NCBI GenBank assembly: GCA_021783475.1
Contig: JAJXTU010000006.1
Coordinates: 1 to 39,727, forward strand
Length of the DNA stretch: 39,727 nucleotides
Source: a bacterium
Lineage (GTDB): Bacteria > Thermodesulfobiota > Thermodesulfobiia > Thermodesulfobiales > Thermodesulfobiaceae
Direction: 5' to 3'
Below the pieces are notes generated by a model. It was given only the letters and a program-made list of their open reading frames with translations, ran no database searches and had not been told where the DNA came from. Positions 1-10,041 of the stretch are shown in pieces. The position numbers were made by a program, and so were the translations under genes. Positions within the stretch are counted from its first letter, which is position 1. Each line of letters opens with the position of its first letter.

Positions 1-2358
1 AATTCAGATGTTATTATGATTTGTGGAGGGAATCCTGCTGAAAATCATCCTGCCATTGCGAGATATATCAATATGTGCAAGGATTCAGGTGGGACGGTAA
101 TATCTGTAGATCCAAGGTTTACGAGAACTTCTTCGCTCTCTGACATATATTCGCCGATAAGGCCAGGCACTGACATAGTTTTTTTTGGTGCCTTAATTAA
201 TTACATTATCCAAAACAAAAAATACCAAGAAGTTTATATGAAAAACTACACAAATGCTTCTTGGTTATTAAAGCCTGAATACGAATTTAAAGACGGTCAT
301 TTTTCTGGATGGGATGAAGCAAAGAGAATGTACAATTATGCCAGCTGGGGATTCCAAACAGGTCCAGATAAAAAAGTTTTGAAAGATATGACCCTTCAGG
401 ATCCAAATTGTGTATTTCAAAGGCTTGCACAACACTATTCTCGATATACGCCTGAAGTTGTAGAAAATGTAGCTGGAATGAAGAAGGAAAATTTCCTGAA
501 AATTGCTGAGGTTTATGCTTCTACTGGAGCGCCAGAAAAATCAGGTTGTTTGATATATGCTATGGGTCTTACCCAACATACTATCGGCACACAAAATATT
601 AGGGCTTTTTGCATGATTCAGCTCTTGCTTGGAAATATGGGTATGGCTGGTGGTGGAGTAAACGCTATGAGAGGCGAGGCAAACGTTCAAGGGTCTACTG
701 ATATGGGTCTTTTGTTCCATACTTTGCCAGGTTATCTGCCATCACCAAATGACAAATTACATCCTACTCTTCAGGAATTTATTAAAAAGTCTATCGCACC
801 TGATAGCTACTGGGTTAACGCTCCTAAGTTTATTATAAGTATGCTAAAAGCATGGTATGGAGATGCAGCCACAAAGGATAACAATTTCGGATATGATTGG
901 GTGCCAAAGTGGTCAAAGCCAGCTTCCTGGATGCACATATGGGACAACCTATATAAAAATGAAGGAATTAAAGGTATGATGATCTGGGGACAAAACCCCC
1001 TGGTATCAAGTCCATTTGCTGATAAAACAGGCAAGGCACTAGAAAACCTTGAGTGGCTGATGCAAGCAGATTTATTCGAGACTGAAACTGCTAATTTCTG
1101 GAGAAGACCTCATGCCGATACGAAAAATATTAAGACAGAAGTATTTTTGCTGCCTGTGGCATCAATGGTAGAGAAAGACGGTTCGGCTACCAATACCTCC
1201 AGGTGGCTTCAGATGAGATATAAGTCAGTAGAGCCGCTTTATGAGTGCAGAGAAGATTCAGTAATAATGCACGATTTGATTCATAAAATAAAAGATCTGG
1301 TAAAAGTTGATCCGTCTACCCCAAGTCCTGAGTCAATACTTAACTTAACATGGGATTACGGTGGACACAACCACAGTGCGGATGAGGTGTTTAAAGAAAT
1401 CAACGGCTTTGAGGTAGCAACGAAAAAGCAAGTTCCGGGCTTTGCTGCACTAAAAGATGATGGTTCTACGACAAGCGGTTGCTGGATATATTCTGGAATG
1501 TTTCCTCCTGCAGGAAATCTTGCGAAAAGGAGAAAACCAGAAAAAACTGGATTGGGACTCAATCCTGAATGGGGTTGGGCATGGCCTGTAAATAGAAGAA
1601 TTCTATACAATAGAGCTGCATGTGATTTAGAAGGCAATCCTTGGAATCCTGAAAAATACGTTATAAAGTGGGATGCTGGACAAAAGAAGTGGGTGGGTCG
1701 AGATGTTCCCGACTTCTTGCCTACAAAAGCTCCGTCAGATGCGGGAGGAACGCTGCCCTTTATAATGCTCACTGGCGGACAGGGAAGAATATTTGTTCCT
1801 GGCGGCATAGTAAAAGATGGTCCTGTCCCTGAACACTATGAGCCAATTGAGTCGCCAGTTGCAAATAAAGTAAACCCTGTACAAAATAATCCAATTGCTG
1901 TGATATTTAAGTCAAACATAGACAAGTATGCTCCACTCAACGATCCGAAATTTCCATATATTTGTACCACATATAGAGTTGCAGAACATTATCAATCGGG
2001 TGCAATAACAAGAAAAATACCTATAACAGTAGAAGCTATGCCACAAGTTTTCGCTGAGATCGATCCTGAGCTTGCAAAAGAGCTTAACATAAAGGATGGT
2101 GACAATGTAGAACTTGAGTCCATAAGGGGTAAGGTTAAAGCTAAAGCATGTGTTACTACCAGGGTTCAACCGATGATAATCAATGGTAAAAAATATCATG
2201 TAGTTGGAATTCCATGGAACTGGGGCTTTGTCGGTATAGATCCAGATAGCGGTAAAGACGAATCATTTGCTGCAAATCTTGTAACAGAAAATGTAGGGGA
2301 TCCTACAAGCCTTATTCCAGAATCCAAAGCTTTGATGATTAACTTGAGGAGGGCCTAA
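1..2358 (+). CDS. fdhA: Formate dehydrogenase catalytic (alpha) subunit, copy 1, 5' end cut by window edge
   Basis: This is the molybdopterin (Mo- or W-bis-MGD) subunit that oxidises formate to CO2, of the membrane-anchored FDH-N/FDH-O type. The frame is open from base 1; the first codons read NSDVI and align with residue 214 onward of the complete paralogue at 5614, so about 213 N-terminal codons are missing. The lost part would hold the twin-arginine signal, the [4Fe-4S] cysteines and the Sec/Cys active-site residue. Visible family features include GGNPAENHP near the start, the stretch around TIGTQNIRAFC and GNMGMAGGGVNAMRGEANVQ, and a C-terminal cofactor-binding domain ending in LMINLRRA. 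The next gene, fdhB, starts 1 nt after the stop, with a GAGGAGG ribosome site inside the end of this gene. The internal ATG at 16 is not the true start. Whether this copy carries Sec or Cys cannot be seen. Confidence 0.93.
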   Translation, partial: NSDVIMICGGNPAENHPAIARYINMCKDSGGTVISVDPRFTRTSSLSDIYSPIRPGTDIVFFGALINYIIQNKKYQEVYMKNYTNASWLLKPEYEFKDGHFSGWDEAKRMYNYASWGFQTGPDKKVLKDMTLQDPNCVFQRLAQHYSRYTPEVVENVAGMKKENFLKIAEVYASTGAPEKSGCLIYAMGLTQHTIGTQNIRAFCMIQLLLGNMGMAGGGVNAMRGEANVQGSTDMGLLFHTLPGYLPSPNDKLHPTLQEFIKKSIAPDSYWVNAPKFIISMLKAWYGDAATKDNNFGYDWVPKWSKPASWMHIWDNLYKNEGIKGMMIWGQNPLVSSPFADKTGKALENLEWLMQADLFETETANFWRRPHADTKNIKTEVFLLPVASMVEKDGSATNTSRWLQMRYKSVEPLYECREDSVIMHDLIHKIKDLVKVDPSTPSPESILNLTWDYGGHNHSADEVFKEINGFEVATKKQVPGFAALKDDGSTTSGCWIYSGMFPPAGNLAKRRKPEKTGLGLNPEWGWAWPVNRRILYNRAACDLEGNPWNPEKYVIKWDAGQKKWVGRDVPDFLPTKAPSDAGGTLPFIMLTGGQGRIFVPGGIVKDGPVPEHYEPIESPVANKVNPVQNNPIAVIFKSNIDKYAPLNDPKFPYICTTYRVAEHYQSGAITRKIPITVEAMPQVFAEIDPELAKELNIKDGDNVELESIRGKVKAKACVTTRVQPMIINGKKYHVVGIPWNWGFVGIDPDSGKDESFAANLVTENVGDPTSLIPESKALMINLRRA

Positions 2359-2359
2359 A

Positions 2360-3139
2360 ATGGAAAGAGTGGCCTATATGTACGATTCTTCCAAGTGTAT
2401 GGGTTGTAGGGGATGCCAGAGCATTTGCAAGGAATGGAACGATCAAAAAACTGATCCTACAACTTTTAATGGGGTATATACCAATCCTCCCAGTCTAAAT
2501 CCTGATACAAGGATGATTATAAAATTTTATGATACCTTTACTCCAGATCCAAATTTTAACTTTTTAAAATATCAGTGTTTCCACTGCGGAGATCCTGCTT
2601 GCGTAAAGGCATGCCCAAGCGGAGCTCTTTTCCAGGCAGAAAATGGCATAGTAGCATTTGATGTAAACAAGTGTATAGCATGTGGTTACTGTCACAGTGC
2701 ATGTCCATTTGGGATTCCTCAGATTGGGAAAGTGATAAACAAATGCGATATGTGCTATTCAAGGGTTATGGAAGGTTCTGAATCTGATAAAACTTCTACG
2801 CCTGCATGTGTAAAGAGCTGCCCTGCGGGCGCACTTACTTTCGGGAAAAGAAATGATTTGGTTGAGCAAGGCAAGAAAAAGGTTGAAATTTTAAAAAATA
2901 AAGGATATACAGAAGCAAATCTTTATGGAGAAAATATTCTTGGAGGGTTAGGAGTTCTGGCTATTCTAAAGTATTCTCCTGAAAAATATGGTCTTCCAAA
3001 GGAACCTACATTTCCTAATGATATTGGTTTGTGGAAAGGCATATTGCATCCTTTAGGGGTAATTATGTTAGGAGGCGCAGCTGGTTTTGTCGTGCTTCAT
3101 AGAGCGCTTAACCTGGGAAAAAAGGGAGGTGATAAATAA
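2360..3139 (+). CDS. fdhB: Formate dehydrogenase iron-sulfur (beta) subunit, copy 1
   Basis: This is the electron-transfer subunit that links the catalytic subunit to the membrane cytochrome b. It has 259 residues and four ferredoxin-type cysteine groups, enough for four [4Fe-4S] clusters: CMGCRGCQSIC at residues 13-23, CFHCGDPACVKACP, CIACGYCHSACP, and CDMC with CVKSCP. A single hydrophobic segment near residues 228-246 (GVIMLGGAAGFVVLHRAL) matches the C-terminal membrane anchor of FdnH-type subunits. It is slightly shorter than E. coli FdnH. The gene starts 1 nt after fdhA and its TAA stop overlaps the ATG of fdhC by one base (TAATG), so translation is probably coupled. A paralogue of the same length lies at 8612. 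Confidence 0.94.
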   Translation: MERVAYMYDSSKCMGCRGCQSICKEWNDQKTDPTTFNGVYTNPPSLNPDTRMIIKFYDTFTPDPNFNFLKYQCFHCGDPACVKACPSGALFQAENGIVAFDVNKCIACGYCHSACPFGIPQIGKVINKCDMCYSRVMEGSESDKTSTPACVKSCPAGALTFGKRNDLVEQGKKKVEILKNKGYTEANLYGENILGGLGVLAILKYSPEKYGLPKEPTFPNDIGLWKGILHPLGVIMLGGAAGFVVLHRALNLGKKGGDK

Positions 3140-3789
3140 TGGCTGTAAAAAAGATTGAAAAACATAAGAAAAATACTAGGATATTTCACTGGTTGCACTT
3201 AATAACATTTATAGTTATGCTTTGGACTGGAATTTCTTTGTTTTATCCGTGGACGAATGTTTTAGGTATGACTTTTGGCAGCCTTAGAAATGCAGCATTT
3301 ATTCACAAATATCTTGGATGGTTTTATGTGGTTCTTCCGATAGTTTATGTTTCCTGGAACTTCAAGCTATTTTCAAACTTTTTCAAAACTATTAGCACAT
3401 TTACACCTGAAGATAAGAAATGGCTTTCTATACTGGGTGGTTATTTGCATCCCATAATTAAGGCTGATGAAGTTCCTCCACAAGGCAAATACAATGCGGG
3501 ACAAAAACTTTTGGGTTGGATAATAATTGTTTTTTCAATTTTACTGGGTATTACAGGGTTGGTTATGTTTTATTATGCGCTATTCCCTGGTTTGTTGGTT
3601 CGAACGGCTATAATAGTTCACGTATTTTGTGGCACATTTTTAGGGGCTGCTGTGATTGTGCACTTTTACCTTGCTGCAGTTAATCCTACATCGAACAAAG
3701 AGTTGGGGACTATGCTTGGCAGTGGTATGATAGAGGAAGATTATGTAAAACATCATAACGCGCTATGGTATGAAGATCTAAAAAAGTAG
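3139..3789 (+). CDS. fdhC: Formate dehydrogenase cytochrome b556 (gamma) subunit, copy 1
   Basis: This is the integral membrane di-heme cytochrome that anchors the complex and reduces quinone. It has 216 residues and about four hydrophobic segments (roughly residues 20-45, 55-75, 125-150 and 155-180). Candidate heme-ligand histidines sit where expected for the FdnI family: H17 and H20 (IFHWLHL), H56 (AAFIHKYLG), and H161 and H175 (VHVFCGTFLG then VIVHFYL). A GGAGGTGATAAAT ribosome site lies inside the end of fdhB. The gene closes the first fdhABC operon, and 36 nt after its stop begins the first copy of a 67-bp hairpin repeat. Same length and clear homology to the copy at 9391. Confidence 0.92.
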   Translation: MAVKKIEKHKKNTRIFHWLHLITFIVMLWTGISLFYPWTNVLGMTFGSLRNAAFIHKYLGWFYVVLPIVYVSWNFKLFSNFFKTISTFTPEDKKWLSILGGYLHPIIKADEVPPQGKYNAGQKLLGWIIIVFSILLGITGLVMFYYALFPGLLVRTAIIVHVFCGTFLGAAVIVHFYLAAVNPTSNKELGTMLGSGMIEEDYVKHHNALWYEDLKK

Positions 3790-3825
3790 ACAGTTTCTAA
3801 TGATAAAATAGATTTATAAAGTATA

Positions 3826-3892
3826 TTTTATATTGTTTTTAATTTGAGTGCAAGGTCTTAAATGGCTTTGCACTCAAAAATTGTAAATCTTT
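3826..3892 (+). repeat. 67-bp direct repeat with hairpin, copy I (between fdhC1 and hicB)
   Basis: This 67-nt segment is identical to 4531-4597. It holds an 11-bp perfect inverted repeat: TTTGAGTGCAA at 3843-3853 pairs with TTGCACTCAAA at 3867-3877, with a 13-nt loop. A further shared 19-nt block lies just upstream (3803-3821, matching 4494-4512), separated from the core by 4 nt here and 18 nt in copy II. There is no clear T-run after the stem, so it is not a textbook terminator, though it could act as a processing or stabilising hairpin at the end of the fdhABC transcript. Confidence 0.95.
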
Positions 3893-3972
3893 ATTAAAGA
3901 GAAAACTTGATATGAATATATTGATAATTTTAAATCGACGGGTTTTTGTATATATGATAAAGGAGGAGAATT

Positions 3973-4206
3973 ATGAGGGTTTTAAATTATCGTATATTTC
4001 TGAGAAGGGAGTCTGAAGGTGGTTACACGGTAACAGTTCCGTCGTTGCCAGGCTGTGTAACTTATGGTGATACATTAGATAATGCGGTGTTGATGGCCAA
4101 GGAGGCAATTGAGCTTTATATAGAAACCCTTGATTCTCATGGCGAAGATATACCATTGGAAGATAACATATTTGAGACCACAGTCGCTGTAGAATCTAAT
4201 GCCTAA
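3973..4206 (+). CDS. hicB: HicB-family antitoxin
   Basis: A 77-residue HicB-type antitoxin that would neutralise the HicA RNase encoded next to it. The partial RNase-H-like fold is recognisable from YRIFLRRESEGGYTVTVPSL, then PGCVTYGDTLDNAV and an amphipathic helix (MAKEAIELYIETL). No clear C-terminal DNA-binding domain is present, so this is the short form of the family, and promoter binding may be weak or rest with the complex. A strong ribosome site (AAAGGAGGAG) lies 4 nt before the ATG. The 3' end overlaps hicA by 8 nt. The antitoxin-first order is the less common one for hic loci but well known. The pair is bracketed by exact 67-bp direct repeats. Confidence 0.87.
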   Translation: MRVLNYRIFLRRESEGGYTVTVPSLPGCVTYGDTLDNAVLMAKEAIELYIETLDSHGEDIPLEDNIFETTVAVESNA

Positions 4207-4423
4207 ACTGCCTTCATTAACTCCTCAGAAGGTGATATATATTCTTCAAAAAAAAGGATTTATACTTGAGAGAACAAAGGGAAGTCATCATATCTTTATA
4301 AATTTAGAAACTAAAAGAATGGTAGTTGTGCCGTTTCATAAAAAAGACCTGCCAAATGGGACGCTTCTTGAAATATTAAAACAGTCAGGTATAAGCAAAG
4401 AAGAACTAGAAAAATTGATTTAA
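4199..4423 (+). CDS. hicA: HicA-family mRNA interferase toxin
   Basis: A 74-residue HicA toxin with a dsRBD-like fold, a ribosome-independent RNase that cleaves mRNA. The sequence runs PQKVIYILQKKGF, then the diagnostic catalytic segment RTKGSHHIFIN (catalytic His at residue 30), then VVVPFHKKDLPNGTLLEILKQ, which is typical of the family almost end to end. Its length is normal. The ATG lies inside the 3' end of hicB (8-nt overlap), so translation is coupled to the antitoxin. No frameshift or missing key residue is visible, so the toxin is probably functional. The second copy of the flanking repeat begins about 70-107 nt downstream. Confidence 0.9.
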   Translation: MPKLPSLTPQKVIYILQKKGFILERTKGSHHIFINLETKRMVVVPFHKKDLPNGTLLEILKQSGISKEELEKLI

Positions 4424-4530
4424 GATATTAAATTGATTCATCAAAATTATTTCTGTAATTATTTAAATAAATTTTAAGCTATATTTGATTATAATAAAAT
4501 AGATTTATAAAGATTAGATTTTGATTAAAA

Positions 4531-4597
4531 TTTTATATTGTTTTTAATTTGAGTGCAAGGTCTTAAATGGCTTTGCACTCAAAAATTGTAAATCTTT
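4531..4597 (+). repeat. 67-bp direct repeat with hairpin, copy II (leader of fdhE)
   Basis: Identical over 67 nt to 3826-3892, including the 11-bp inverted repeat (4548-4558 with 4572-4582). It ends 3 nt before the GGAGG ribosome site of fdhE (4601-4605), so it forms the 5' leader of fdhE. The two copies are 705 bp apart and enclose only hicBA and its flanks. Recombination between them would delete hicBA and leave fdhC1-repeat-fdhE. Confidence 0.95.
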
Positions 4598-4610
4598 TTC
4601 GGAGGTACAG

Positions 4611-5396
4611 ATGAATTTAACAAAATATGTAGAAAAGTACCCAATTTTAGAATCAGTTGCTGCTTTTTGGGAGAATTATTTTTCTTGTAGAGATAAGTTG
4701 CTCTCTAAATTACCTGATTTTATTTCACCAGATAGTATTAAAGTTGATGAATTTAAAAAAGCTTTTGATGAAGGCAGACCGTATTTAGATTTATTTAAAA
4801 TTAAGATATACAAGAAAGATCTAAATTTTTTGGCAAAAATTGTAAAAGATGATTTTGGAATAAAAGAAAAAGTAAAATTTGATGAAAAGGGCTTACCGAT
4901 ATTTGACAAGTTAATTTTACCTGAAGATAAAATAGGTTTCGTAAAGTTAGTTGTTTATTCTTCTATTTATTCATATATTGGCGATATAATTATGAAAAAT
5001 TGTAGCCTTGTAAAATGGTATGAGCCTATTTGTCCTGTTTGCGGTTCGAGGGCTGGCTTAGGATTTATAGAGGGGGATGGAAAGAAGAGTCTGGTCTGTT
5101 CTACTTGTTATACGAGGTGGGGACACAGAAGGACAGCTTGCCCTGTATGCGCTGATGAAGAACAAAAGTCAATGAAATATTTAAGTGCAGATGAACTCCC
5201 TGGGTGGAGGATAGAGGTTTGCGAATCCTGTGGTATGTATTTAAAAGTATTGGACTTAAGGGAAAAAAATGAGGACACACCTCTTTATCCCTTACTTTAC
5301 CTTTCGAGTTGGGATTTGGACGTTTCAGTGAAAGATTTAAACTTCAGACCATCATGGTTCAAGATTTTTTATGCTGCATCTTGGCTTAATAAATAA
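4611..5396 (+). CDS. fdhE: FdhE-like formate dehydrogenase accessory protein
   Basis: A 261-residue cytoplasmic protein of the FdhE family, which binds FDH catalytic subunits and is needed for their maturation before Tat export. The C-terminal half carries four CxxC motifs that bind iron or another metal: CPVC at 141-144, CSTC at 163-166, CPVC at 177-180 and CESC at 204-207. The context around them (GSRAG, TRWGHRRTACPVC, LPGWRIEVCESCGMYLK) is typical of FdhE. The N-terminal half is helical and less conserved. GGAGG lies 5 nt before the ATG. Its place between two fdhABC operons suggests that it serves both enzymes. Confidence 0.88.
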   Translation: MNLTKYVEKYPILESVAAFWENYFSCRDKLLSKLPDFISPDSIKVDEFKKAFDEGRPYLDLFKIKIYKKDLNFLAKIVKDDFGIKEKVKFDEKGLPIFDKLILPEDKIGFVKLVVYSSIYSYIGDIIMKNCSLVKWYEPICPVCGSRAGLGFIEGDGKKSLVCSTCYTRWGHRRTACPVCADEEQKSMKYLSADELPGWRIEVCESCGMYLKVLDLREKNEDTPLYPLLYLSSWDLDVSVKDLNFRPSWFKIFYAASWLNK

Positions 5397-5400
5397 TACT

Positions 5401-5430
5401 TATTCTTGTTTATGATAAGAATATTTTATA
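5401..5430 (+). terminator. Possible weak terminator after fdhE
   Basis: A 7-bp stem (TATTCTT at 5401-5407 with AAGAATA at 5417-5423) and 9-nt loop are followed by TTTTATA. It begins 4 nt after the fdhE stop. The stem is short and AT-rich, so termination would be weak. The rest of 5431-5547 is AT-rich with no gene. Confidence 0.35.
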
Positions 5431-5547
5431 ATAAATTATTTTAAATCAAAATTTTCAAGAATATAGCTTAAATTTGAATATAAGACAGTTTTTAAGATAA
5501 AATTTTTTTATATATTTAAATTTGAGCATTATTTAACCAATTTAATG

Positions 5548-5600
5548 TGATATTATTAAATTGATAGTGTTTTGAAATTATAAAATATATTCACTATCAA
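5548..5600 (+). promoter_or_regulatory. Promoter and inverted-repeat leader of the second fdh operon
   Basis: An extended -10 candidate, TGATATTAT (5548-5556), is followed by a perfect 9-bp inverted repeat: TTGATAGTG at 5561-5569 and CACTATCAA at 5592-5600, with a 22-nt AT-rich spacer. The expected transcription start falls on the left arm. The right arm ends 1 nt before the GGAGTG ribosome site (5602-5607). It could be an operator, or a 5'-terminal RNA hairpin that affects stability or ribosome access. No good -35 box is seen. Confidence 0.45.
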
Positions 5601-5613
5601 GGGAGTGAAATGA

Positions 5614-8610
5614 ATGGGGAAATTTAATCGAAGAGATTTTCTGAAGTTTTCCTTTACTAGTGCTGCCATGATGGTATTCGATGGCAACGTAGCTGTACCA
5701 AAGCTTGCCTATGCAAGCACACCTTTTAAGCTAAAAGATACCAAGGTTACAAATTCTGTATGTATTTATTGCGGAATTGGTTGTGGTCTTTTAATCTATT
5801 CAAAGGACAGCAAGGTAGTAAACGTTGAGGGAGATCCTGATAATCCAAATAGCGAAGGTGGGCTTTGCGCAAAGGGTTCTACCTGTTTTAGCGTTTACGA
5901 TAGCCCACTGAGGTTGCAAAAACCAATGTATAGAGCTCCTGGCTCTGACAAGTGGGAAGAGAAAAGCTGGGATTGGACTATTTCTGAGCTTGTCAAACGA
6001 ATCAAAAAAACTCGAGATAGTTCTTTTGTAAAGACTTCAAACGGAGTAACAGTAAATAGAACTGAGGGACTTGCGATGCTTGGTGGCGCAGCTCACGGTA
6101 CCGATGAGTGTTATCTATTTGCTAAGGTTGCCAGGGCTCTTGGTATAGTTTACCTTGAGCATCAGGCAAGAATCTGTCACTCTTCTACTGTTACAGCCTT
6201 GGGGCCAAGTTTTGGCAGAGGGGCAATGACAAACTCGCTAATAGATGTGAAAAATTCTGACGTAATAATGATATGCGGAGGAAATCCTGCAGAGAACCAT
6301 CCAGGCAGTGCGCGCTATATCAATATGTGCAAAGAGCGTGGCGGCAAGGTTATTTCTGTGGATCCGCGATTCACTAGAACCTCTGCACTCTCAAACATTT
6401 ATGCTCAAATAAGACCTGGTACTGATATTGCATTTTTTGGTGGTTTGATAAACTATATTCTTCAAAACAATAAATATCAGGATATTTATGTAAAACACTA
6501 TACCAATGCATCTTATCTTTTAAAGCCTGAATTTGATTTTCAGGATGGATATTTTTCTGGATGGGATATGACAGGCAAGTCATATAATTATGCAACCTGG
6601 GCATATCAAACTGGTCCTGATAAGAAGCCATTGAGAGATATGACCCTTCAAGACCCAAGCTGTGTATTTCAGAAAATGAAGCTTCATTATTCAAGATATA
6701 CTCCTGATGCTGTTGAAAAAATCACAGGGATTAATAAGGAAACTTTTCTTGAGATTGCACAATTGTTTAGCTCTACTGGTGCGCCAGATAAATCTGGCAC
6801 ATTGATGTATGCGATGGGCCTAACACAGCACACTATTGGCACACAAAACATCAGAGCTTTTTGCGTCATTCAACTTTTGCTGGGCAACTTAGGTATGGCT
6901 GGTGGTGGGGTGAACGCAATGAGAGGGGAGACCAATGTTCAGGGTTCTACTGATATGGCTCTTCTTTATAACTCCTGGCCTGGATACCTTGCTGCTCCGA
7001 ACGAAAAACTTCATCCAAATTTCAAGGAATACCTGAAAAAGATTACGTTGCCTGATTGCTATTGGTCTAATGCGCCAAAGTTTGCAGTTAGTATGCTTAA
7101 GGCATGGTTTGGAGACGCAGCTACAAAAGAAAATGATTTTGGTTATGATTGGCTGCCAAAGTGGTCCAAGCCAGCTTCATGGATGTATATCTGGGACAAT
7201 CTCTATAAAAATGAGGGTATTAAGGGGATGATGATCTGGGGTCAAAACCCATTGGTATCAAGCCCATTAGGTGATAAAACTGGCAAGGCATTAGACAATC
7301 TTGATTGGCTTATGTCTGCTGATATTTTTGAAACTGAAACAGCTAATTTCTGGAGAAGGCCGGGCGCTGATCCTAAGAGCATAAAAACTGAAGTTTTTAT
7401 GCTTCCTATATCTTCATTTGTAGAGAAAAATGGTTCAGTTACAAACACTTCTAGGTGGCTGCAGATGAAATATCAGGCAATCGAGCCACTTTATGAGTCC
7501 AAAGAAGACATGGTTGTATTAGATGGTCTGGTGCTTGGATTAAAGAAGCAATTTAAAGACGATCCTTCTACCCCTTCTCCTGAAGCTATACTTAACTTAA
7601 CTTGGGGTTATGGTGGAGATAAGTATGATATAGATACCGCGTTAAAAGAGATCAACGGTTTTGAGGTCGCAACGAAAAAACAGCTAGTTAGTTTTGCAGC
7701 CCTTAAGGAAGATGGCTCAACCGCATGCGGTTGTTGGATATATTCAGGAGTGTACCCGCCGGCTGGGAATATGGCTGCAAGGAGAAAACCTGAAAAAGAG
7801 GGGATAGGACTTAATTCTGAATGGGCATGGTCATGGCCTGTAAACAGAAGAATTCTATATAACAGAGCTAGCTGCGATCTGGAGGGTAATCCCTGGAATC
7901 CAAAGTTGTCTGTTATTAGTTGGGATAGCGCTCAAAAGAAGTGGACTGGCCGAGATGTGCCAGATTTTCTTCCAACAAAAGCGCCAAGCGCACCTGGTGG
8001 AGATGCTCCTTTCATAATGATACCAGAAGGCGGAGGAAGGCTTTTCGTGCCAGCTGGAATAGTTAAAGACGGTCCATTTCCTGAGCATTATGAGCCAATT
8101 GAAGCTCCTGTGAAGAATCTTATAAGCTCTGTACAAAACAATCCTGTAGCTATAGTTTTCAAATCAAACATTGATAAGTATGCCCCATTAAACGATCCAA
8201 AATATCCATATATATGTACCACATATAGATTAACTGAGCACTATCAAAGTGGAAGTATAACAAGAAAAATTCCGATCTTAGTCGAAGAGATGCCGCAGGT
8301 TTTTGCAGAAATAGACCCTGAACTTGCAAAAAATCTTGGGATTAAAAATGGTGACAAAGTAGAGCTCGAATCTATCAGGGGCAAAGTAAAGGCACAAGCT
8401 TGTGTTACATCCAGGCTGCAGCCTATTATGATTGATGGCAAAAAGTTTCATATAGTTGGGATACCTTGGCATTGGGGCTTTGTAGGAATAGATCCTGATA
8501 GCGGCAAAAAAGAATCTTTTTCTGCTAACCTGATGACTGAAAATGTAGGGGATCCGACTTCTGAGATTCAAGAGTCCAAAGCGTTGATGATTAACTTGAG
8601 GAGGGCCTAA
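5614..8610 (+). CDS. fdhA: Formate dehydrogenase catalytic (alpha) subunit, copy 2, Cys-type
   Basis: A complete 998-residue FdnG-like subunit (E. coli FdnG has 1015). The N-terminus has a twin-arginine signal (NRRDFLKF, hydrophobic stretch, cleavage after LAYA near residue 34), so the enzyme faces the periplasm. CIYCGIGCG with the later GGLCAKG binds the proximal [4Fe-4S] cluster. The metal ligand that is selenocysteine in FdnG is cysteine here: ARICHSST, Cys188 (TGT at 6175-6177) followed by the conserved His189. GRGAMTN, GGNPAENHP and the C-terminal molybdopterin domain follow. Start: GGAGTG 6 nt before the ATG at 5614. The overlapping ATG at 5610 hits a stop after five codons. It is strongly similar to copy 1 throughout, down to the same C-terminus. 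Confidence 0.96.
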   Translation: MGKFNRRDFLKFSFTSAAMMVFDGNVAVPKLAYASTPFKLKDTKVTNSVCIYCGIGCGLLIYSKDSKVVNVEGDPDNPNSEGGLCAKGSTCFSVYDSPLRLQKPMYRAPGSDKWEEKSWDWTISELVKRIKKTRDSSFVKTSNGVTVNRTEGLAMLGGAAHGTDECYLFAKVARALGIVYLEHQARICHSSTVTALGPSFGRGAMTNSLIDVKNSDVIMICGGNPAENHPGSARYINMCKERGGKVISVDPRFTRTSALSNIYAQIRPGTDIAFFGGLINYILQNNKYQDIYVKHYTNASYLLKPEFDFQDGYFSGWDMTGKSYNYATWAYQTGPDKKPLRDMTLQDPSCVFQKMKLHYSRYTPDAVEKITGINKETFLEIAQLFSSTGAPDKSGTLMYAMGLTQHTIGTQNIRAFCVIQLLLGNLGMAGGGVNAMRGETNVQGSTDMALLYNSWPGYLAAPNEKLHPNFKEYLKKITLPDCYWSNAPKFAVSMLKAWFGDAATKENDFGYDWLPKWSKPASWMYIWDNLYKNEGIKGMMIWGQNPLVSSPLGDKTGKALDNLDWLMSADIFETETANFWRRPGADPKSIKTEVFMLPISSFVEKNGSVTNTSRWLQMKYQAIEPLYESKEDMVVLDGLVLGLKKQFKDDPSTPSPEAILNLTWGYGGDKYDIDTALKEINGFEVATKKQLVSFAALKEDGSTACGCWIYSGVYPPAGNMAARRKPEKEGIGLNSEWAWSWPVNRRILYNRASCDLEGNPWNPKLSVISWDSAQKKWTGRDVPDFLPTKAPSAPGGDAPFIMIPEGGGRLFVPAGIVKDGPFPEHYEPIEAPVKNLISSVQNNPVAIVFKSNIDKYAPLNDPKYPYICTTYRLTEHYQSGSITRKIPILVEEMPQVFAEIDPELAKNLGIKNGDKVELESIRGKVKAQACVTSRLQPIMIDGKKFHIVGIPWHWGFVGIDPDSGKKESFSANLMTENVGDPTSEIQESKALMINLRRA

Positions 8611-8611
8611 G

Positions 8612-9391
8612 ATGGATAGAGTGGCCTATATGTTCGATTCTTCTAAATGCATGGGTTGTAGAGGGTGTCAATCTGTTTGTAAACAGTGGAACGATCAAAA
8701 AACTGACCCTACTACTTTTAATGGATTTTATACAAATCCGCCAACTTTGAATCCACATACGCGTATGATTATAAATTTCTACGATGATTTTACTGAGAAA
8801 CAGAATTTTAATTTTCTTAAATATCAGTGTTTTCACTGTGGCGAGCCTGCCTGCGTAAAGGCTTGCCCAAGCGGTGCTTTGTTCCAGGCAGAAAATGGCA
8901 TAGTAGCATTCGATGTAAACAAGTGTATAGCATGCGGTTATTGTCACAGTGCCTGTCCATTTGGGATTCCGCAAATTGGTCAAGTGATAAACAAGTGCGA
9001 TATGTGTTTTTCAAGGGTTATGGAGGGCAGCAAATCTGATGAAACTGCTACACCTGCCTGCGTAAAGGCATGTTTGGGAGGGGCACTTTATTTTGGCAAG
9101 AGAGACGATCTGGTAAAACAAGGAAAAGAAAAGGTAGATATTTTGAAAAAAGAGGGCTTTACTGAAGCGAACCTATATGGTGAAAATATACTTGGTGGTT
9201 TGGGAGTACTTTCTATACTAAAATATGATCCTGAAAAATATGGCCTGCCAAAAGATCCTGTTTTTCCAGTAAATACTCTTATCTGGAAGAATATAATGCA
9301 TCCACTTGGGTTGATGATGCTGGGTGGTGCTGCTGGTCTGGTATTTCTTCACAGAATACTGCAGACTGGCAATAAAGGAGGCGATCAGTAA
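8612..9391 (+). CDS. fdhB: Formate dehydrogenase iron-sulfur (beta) subunit, copy 2
   Basis: A 259-residue paralogue of the protein at 2360, colinear without gaps. The four cysteine groups are kept (CMGCRGCQSVC, CFHCGEPACVKACP, CIACGYCHSACP, CDMC with CVKAC), so four [4Fe-4S] clusters are expected. In the last group the usual Pro after Cys is Leu (CVKACLGG), a small departure from copy 1. A C-terminal membrane anchor (LGLMMLGGAAGLVFLHRIL) is present. The start is 1 nt after fdhA2, with the same GAGGAGG site, and the stop overlaps fdhC2 by one base. A 125-nt stretch at 8882-9006 is about 93% identical at DNA level to copy 1, including many synonymous sites. Confidence 0.94.
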   Translation: MDRVAYMFDSSKCMGCRGCQSVCKQWNDQKTDPTTFNGFYTNPPTLNPHTRMIINFYDDFTEKQNFNFLKYQCFHCGEPACVKACPSGALFQAENGIVAFDVNKCIACGYCHSACPFGIPQIGQVINKCDMCFSRVMEGSKSDETATPACVKACLGGALYFGKRDDLVKQGKEKVDILKKEGFTEANLYGENILGGLGVLSILKYDPEKYGLPKDPVFPVNTLIWKNIMHPLGLMMLGGAAGLVFLHRILQTGNKGGDQ

Positions 9392-10041
9392 TGGCAAAAA
9401 AGATGATTGAAAAGCACAAAAAGGCTACTCGTATCTTTCACTGGCTTCACCTTATAACTTTTATAATAATGCTTTGGACAGGATTATCTTTGTTTTATCC
9501 AGCGATGAACGTTATGGGATTGACTTTTGGGAGCCTAAGAAATGCTGCTTTTTTGCATAAATATCTTGGATTTTTCTATCTGTTGCTTCCGCTCTCTTAT
9601 GCAGTATTCAATTTCAATCTATTTTCTAAATTTATAAAACTTATTGGTACCTTTACGCCAGAAGACAAGAAATGGATGAAGGTGTTTGGAGGGTATCTTG
9701 CTCCGCTGATAAAGGCAAAAGAGGTCCCACCGCAGGGCAAGATCAATGCCGGTCAGAAGCTTTTGGGATGGATAATTATCGTGTTTTCTTTGTGCCTTGG
9801 CTTAACTGGATCTATGATGTTCTTCTATGCATCTTTTCCAGGATATTTGATTCAAATGGTGATAATTGTTCATGTATTTTGTGGCACTTTTTTGGGTTCA
9901 GCAATTATTGTTCACTTTTATCTTGGGGCAGTCAACCCTAGTTCAAGAAAAGAGCTTGGAACAATGCTTGGCAATGGAATGATCGATGAAGAGTATGTAA
10001 TGAAGCACAACGAGTTGTGGTATGAGGAGTTAAAGAAGTAA
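9391..10041 (+). CDS. fdhC: Formate dehydrogenase cytochrome b556 (gamma) subunit, copy 2
   Basis: A 216-residue membrane cytochrome b, equal in length to the copy at 3139. The heme-ligand candidates are retained: RIFHWLHL, AAFLHKYLG and VHVFCGTFLGSAIIVHFYL. About four membrane segments are visible. It would take electrons from FdhB2 and reduce quinone at the cytoplasmic side of the membrane. It is the last gene of the second fdhABC operon and is followed 24 nt later by a strong hairpin terminator. Confidence 0.93.
   Translation: MAKKMIEKHKKATRIFHWLHLITFIIMLWTGLSLFYPAMNVMGLTFGSLRNAAFLHKYLGFFYLLLPLSYAVFNFNLFSKFIKLIGTFTPEDKKWMKVFGGYLAPLIKAKEVPPQGKINAGQKLLGWIIIVFSLCLGLTGSMMFFYASFPGYLIQMVIIVHVFCGTFLGSAIIVHFYLGAVNPSSRKELGTMLGNGMIDEEYVMKHNELWYEELKK

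Follow-up and report, generated by a model that had tools for sequence, protein, structure and literature searches.

Genes of the fdhC-fdhE locus

The window, i.e. the whole stretch of bacterial DNA that was analysed (39,727 nucleotides), carries the end of fdhA, then fdhB, fdhC1, hicBA, fdhE and a second fdhA (Table 1). Two paralogous fdhABC sets (16-3789 and 5614-10041), about 74% identical at the DNA level, are located on either side of fdhE, and only the first of them has the hairpin described below after it.

The hicB and hicA genes overlap by 8 nt, and HicB and HicA_toxin domains are encoded in one operon, as is characteristic of HicAB systems. HicA retains the GSH histidine motif, HicB shows an N-terminal partial RNase H-type domain only, without any detected DNA-binding domain, and both the toxicity of HicA and its neutralisation by HicB are predicted. 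The two genes have changed little between the source genome (G000) and a second genome of the same genus (G002): dN is 0.006 for hicB and 0.017 for hicA, and the corresponding dN/dS ratios, which rest on very few changes, are about 0.07 and 0.4, respectively. Besides, HicA has a patchy distribution, and relatives with 66-68% identity occur in distant genomes belonging to three separate families, which is consistent with horizontal transfer.

Table 1. Positions of the genes, repeat copies and hairpins at the hicBA locus
Feature	Position	Strand	Remarks
fdhC1, formate dehydrogenase cytochrome b subunit	3139..3789	+	Pfam PF01292; TIGR01583 just under cut-off
Left copy of the duplicated target segment (about 96 nt)	3800..3895	+	exact 68-nt core 3825-3892
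Hairpin, left copy	3843..3878	+	15-bp stem, 6-nt loop; kept in four species
hicB, antitoxin, 77 aa	3973..4206	+	PF15919, E 4.6e-15; best PDB match 6g1c (HicB)
hicA, toxin, 74 aa	4199..4423	+	PF07927, E 1.6e-19; PDB 1whz, 4c26, 6g26
Right copy of the duplicated segment	4491..4600	+	14 extra bases between 4512 and 4530; exact core 4530-4597
Hairpin, right copy	4548..4583	+	27 nt lie between its end and the start codon of fdhE
fdhE, formate dehydrogenase accessory protein	4611..5396	+	PF24859 over cut-off; PF24860 and TIGR01562 under cut-off

The direct repeat around hicBA

The hicBA pair is bracketed by an exact direct repeat whose copies are spaced by 705 nt from start to start. The initial annotation had rightly recognised two identical copies around the pair, their length being 68 nt rather than the 67 nt given there, and the common 19-nt block that it had noted, ATAAAATAGATTTATAAAG, is indeed found at 3803-3821 and 4494-4512. 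In the right copy of G000, the extra bases listed in Table 1 lie between this block and the exact core. When the left copy of G000 is compared with the right copy of G002, the alignment runs gap-free for 96 nt (94.8% identity), which indicates that the whole duplicated unit measures about 96 nt.

Within the window, this bracket is the sole exact direct repeat of at least 25 nt at a spacing of 100-1000 nt. The genome-wide search for the repeat that the initial annotation had suggested found the 68-mer just twice in G000, both times next to hicBA, thereby ruling out a dispersed repeat. The left copy retains the junction with fdhC and the right copy adjoins the fdhE ribosome-binding site. The insert proper, of about 595 bp, holds little beyond hicB and hicA: it contains no transposase, no integrase and no terminal repeats, and no recognisable ends or inverted termini were found at it. 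Conventional transposons and MITEs are characterized by terminal inverted repeats, a target duplication of 2-14 bp and multiple copies. Such an element was rejected here in view of the lack of terminal inverted repeats, the length of the duplication and the presence of two copies only.

A conserved hairpin within the repeat

Each copy of the repeat does contain a hairpin, as previously noted, although its stem comprises 15 bp including two G-U pairs instead of 11 bp. The predicted fold has an energy of -22.8 kcal/mol (z -7.3), and the pattern was never matched in 100 shuffles, placing it far beyond chance. In each of the four species of the genus that were compared, the hairpin follows closely after fdhC, and its arms are invariant in the four of them (the window and the fdhC-fdhE spacers of L051, L052, and L050) while the spacer around has diverged. 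It is therefore an old single-copy element of the fdh locus, probably under selection.

Regarding its function, a canonical intrinsic terminator was rejected since the hairpin is devoid of a U-tract and a terminator scan of 3600-5700 found none. No match to Rfam families was obtained besides tRNAs. In the species with hicBA at this site, the 27 nt between the hairpin and fdhE leave no room for a promoter behind the hairpin, and fdhE is probably transcribed either through it or from upstream of it. The hairpin may take part in the processing or stability of the fdh mRNA, or may be a protein-binding palindrome.

Occupied and empty sites within the genus

Four genomes of the same genus were compared (G000, G001, G002, and G003), with no outgroup for the spacer. 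In G000 and G002, hicBA lies between fdhC and fdhE together with two copies of the element; in G001 and G003, fdhC and fdhE are adjacent, no hicBA is present between them, and exactly one copy is found at the orthologous spot. The proposal that hicBA came with the duplication of a segment, which the initial annotation had advised to examine in the fdhC-fdhE spacers of relatives, is thereby supported by a single copy without hicBA in the same place in G001 and G003. The two outcomes that it had regarded as contrary to this proposal, namely two copies in relatives without hicBA and a widespread intergenic repeat, were not observed. As the element is restricted to the fdhC-fdhE locus in each of the four genomes, the repeat is host sequence and was not carried by the insert.

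The distance between the hairpin and fdhE amounts to 90-94 nt in G001 and G003 and to 27 nt in G000 and G002. In the latter two, the right copy is followed by the fdhE ribosome-binding site, and the leader of 60-odd nt seen in the hicBA-free species is missing, which, on this sequence comparison, means that the insertion departs from a perfectly simple duplication. As a candidate for the ancestral fdhE leader, the stretch preceding hicB was considered, being of equal length, and was rejected, since without its first 22 nt the similarity does not exceed the null. The genus has further hicBA pairs or remnants, in G001 and G002 (L076, ~5370-5780; L077, ~4640-5050; L078, ~4750-4950). Several of them have stop codons in the aligned stretch, and no strong bracketing repeats were found at these three loci.

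Probable sequence exchange at the locus

The two copies of G000 are identical to each other and differ from the G002 copies at three positions inside the block, corresponding to an A/T difference, the length of a T-run and a base of the loop. At each of them, both copies of a species agree and the species differ, and the reverse grouping finds no support anywhere within the exact block. This pattern suggests that the two copies exchange sequence by gene conversion.

In addition, dS of hicBA between G000 and G002 is 0.062, a value as low being found in only 3 of 221 same-size windows (median 0.22), and the identity between the two genomes is 96-98% up to the right copy, where it falls to some 88%. 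As for fdhE, its dS relative to the sister species reaches 0.59, the highest whole-gene value, the median being near 0.22. Part of the locus has thus probably been exchanged between lineages, to judge from these substitution patterns. The high divergence of fdhE begins right at the right repeat copy, which may mark a recombination boundary.

hicA loci outside the genus

Beyond the genus, 63 hicA loci that were usable and non-redundant were surveyed. Of these, 11 are bracketed by direct repeats that measure 44-211 nt and are spaced by about 590-880 nt, compared to none of 74 control mid-points, taken in the same genomes from pieces of equal length (Fisher p 1.2e-4); this survey is post hoc, having been made after the first case, and its controls were hand-picked and mostly coding, unlike the intergenic hicBA loci. 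Among a mixed collection of other loci, 2.7% of positions are bracketed, and a set of VapC loci, with three members, is too small to serve as a control.

In at least three of the bracketed loci, the repeat is local host sequence: at L173 (1157-1838), the initial 80-odd bases about the beginning of the next gene; at L164 (1162-1803), the terminal portion of the gene before; and at L086 (1346-2072), the 3' end of a tRNA-Glu gene. L094 (1078-1885), L096, L135, and L163 are hicBA pairs in unrelated genomes that are likewise bracketed by direct repeats of neighbouring host sequence, the spacing in these seven loci being about 590-780 nt. The inserts that were measured span about 515-740 bp and have no end sequences in common. 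Among the bracketed cases, the repeats at L140, L144, and L150 look like ordinary dispersed intergenic repeats, and those at L158 and L135 may be paralogous coding sequence. A strict subset composed of L086, L094, L096, L135, L163, L164, and L173 still gives 7 of 63 loci against 0 of 74 controls (p ~0.004, calculated by hand). A lead towards an empty site for G182 was abandoned, as its family relative G037 has hicBA there, with one repeat copy and a truncated hicA, and is consequently not empty. At L109, an 82-nt repeat (669-750 and 2318-2399), 98% identical and with a spacing of 1649 nt, brackets the hicBA region; it is situated at a contig end and could be an assembly effect.

Probable origin of hicBA at the locus

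The explanation that we consider likely is that hicBA, a type II toxin-antitoxin pair, was acquired horizontally and was inserted in the fdhC-fdhE spacer with a target duplication of about 96 bp. Among the four species, the insertion would date from the ancestor shared by G000 and G002, and the duplicated target would be the 3' flank of fdhC including the hairpin. The pair presumably entered through DNA-capture repair or illegitimate recombination, starting from a staggered break or a template switch, the outcome being an "insertion with long target duplication" in which some 100 bp of target are copied. Such a duplication would leave one hairpin copy upstream of hicBA and the other upstream of fdhE, and selection against loss of the antitoxin (addiction) would help to retain the pair. 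The short leader counts against a simple duplication, and the explanation requires either a further deletion or a different leader length prior to insertion. The lack of a comparable bracket at the remaining hicBA loci and remnants of the genus also speaks against it.

The same arrangement could stem from a Campbell-type integration, i.e. homologous recombination of the resident spacer with circular or donor DNA on which hicBA lay beside a further copy of the fdh spacer. This would yield exactly two copies around hicBA without any illegitimate step, and the low hicBA dS together with the drop in identity at the right copy indicates that the segment was probably exchanged by homologous recombination between lineages. 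Nevertheless, it requires hicBA to have been linked already to the fdh spacer elsewhere, the element being found only at the fdh locus in the four genomes, and it leaves unexplained the unrelated host sequences that bracket other hicBA loci. We therefore hold it to be unlikely. Less probable still is an ancestral two-copy state from which G001 and G003 lost hicBA through recombination between the copies. The product would hold one copy, as these two genomes do, and the gene-conversion pattern in G000 and G002 suggests that the copies can recombine. However, such a loss, which is the clean removal envisaged in the initial annotation, predicts 27 nt between the hairpin and fdhE, and this product was not seen: the spacing in G001 and G003 is the longer one, and the two are mutually alignable there. 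Moreover, similarity between the two copies is 95-100%, despite the strong divergence of the spacers between the two clades. The leader length thus favours gain over loss, within a set of four genomes lacking an outgroup.

Finally, the hairpin had been proposed as a dedicated target or border of a small mobile cassette, and a related reading takes it for a mobile or integron-like border (attC-like, REP-like) with hicBA as its cassette. The presence of a hairpin within the repeat, the small size of the cassette and the known occurrence of hicAB on mobile elements speak for it. It is already contradicted by the data and we consider it highly improbable: the hairpin belongs to the fdh locus, with two copies in the G000 genome and one in the hicBA-free species, and the other hicBA insertions lie in unrelated targets, have no common ends and do not share the element. 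Besides, the integron integrase (TIGR02249) had no match over cut-off in the four genomes and no GTTRRRY core was seen by eye in the repeat, so that an integron gene cassette was rejected, and the hairpin arms, when sought across 84,980 species genomes, matched 9 stretches in unrelated bacteria, which is near chance for 20 specified bases.

Coming back to insertion with target duplication, a more tentative extension, which we regard as possible and still doubtful, is that hicBA cassettes as a class may move as minimal two-gene units, inserting in varied host sequence and duplicating 45-200 bp of it without encoding a recombinase.

Relation to known systems

Toxin-antitoxin pairs are called mobile on account of their patchy distribution, but to our knowledge the route by which a module of just two genes gets into a chromosome is mostly unexplained. 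For hicBA, the site is documented here both occupied and empty and the duplication has been measured, and the survey suggests the same footprint at unrelated hicBA loci. The insertion mechanism is thereby open to large-scale comparison and to laboratory tests.

The pair resembles type II HicAB systems (PMC2701414, PMC11594946) in its GSH-motif HicA, its partial RNase H-type HicB, its overlapping genes and its patchy distribution. It differs in that HicB comes first and has no detectable DNA-binding domain, such a domain being common according to a 2024 HicAB review. Target duplication is absent from the same review, in which the word "duplication" does not occur, and no report of a long target duplication for hicAB was found in the literature searched, a limited search that is no proof of novelty. 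The ccdO157-type islets are similar in that a toxin-antitoxin pair alone constitutes a genomic islet that varies between strains, and differ from hicBA here in that the passages concerned mention no long target duplication (PMC2654758).

A closer likeness is offered by restriction-modification systems, for which passages of PMC3874152 report insertions that duplicate target sequence "in the order of 100 bp"; long target duplication is attributed to Nobusato et al. 2000 and Furuta et al. 2010, as cited in PMC3874152, PMC3031569, and PMC1643837. Of the features by which such an insertion is recognised, a single-copy empty site, flanking repeats of about 100 bp and a repeat derived from the host are found at the hicBA site; as for the original downstream sequence expected after the right copy, the fdhE ribosome-binding site is there and the leader of 60-odd nt is missing. 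As far as these passages describe them, the restriction-modification insertions share with hicBA a small addiction-type module, a target duplication of about 100 bp, a single copy in the insert-free relative and the lack of a transposase, but differ in that the insert here is a toxin-antitoxin pair and that the downstream part of the target seems to have been lost or replaced. The hicBA site thereby links toxin-antitoxin modules to the long-target-duplication insertions of restriction-modification systems. If insertion with target duplication held true for hicBA cassettes as a class, it would point to a general transposition-like route for toxin-antitoxin modules, hinting at movement without a transposase and running parallel to the one proposed for restriction-modification systems.
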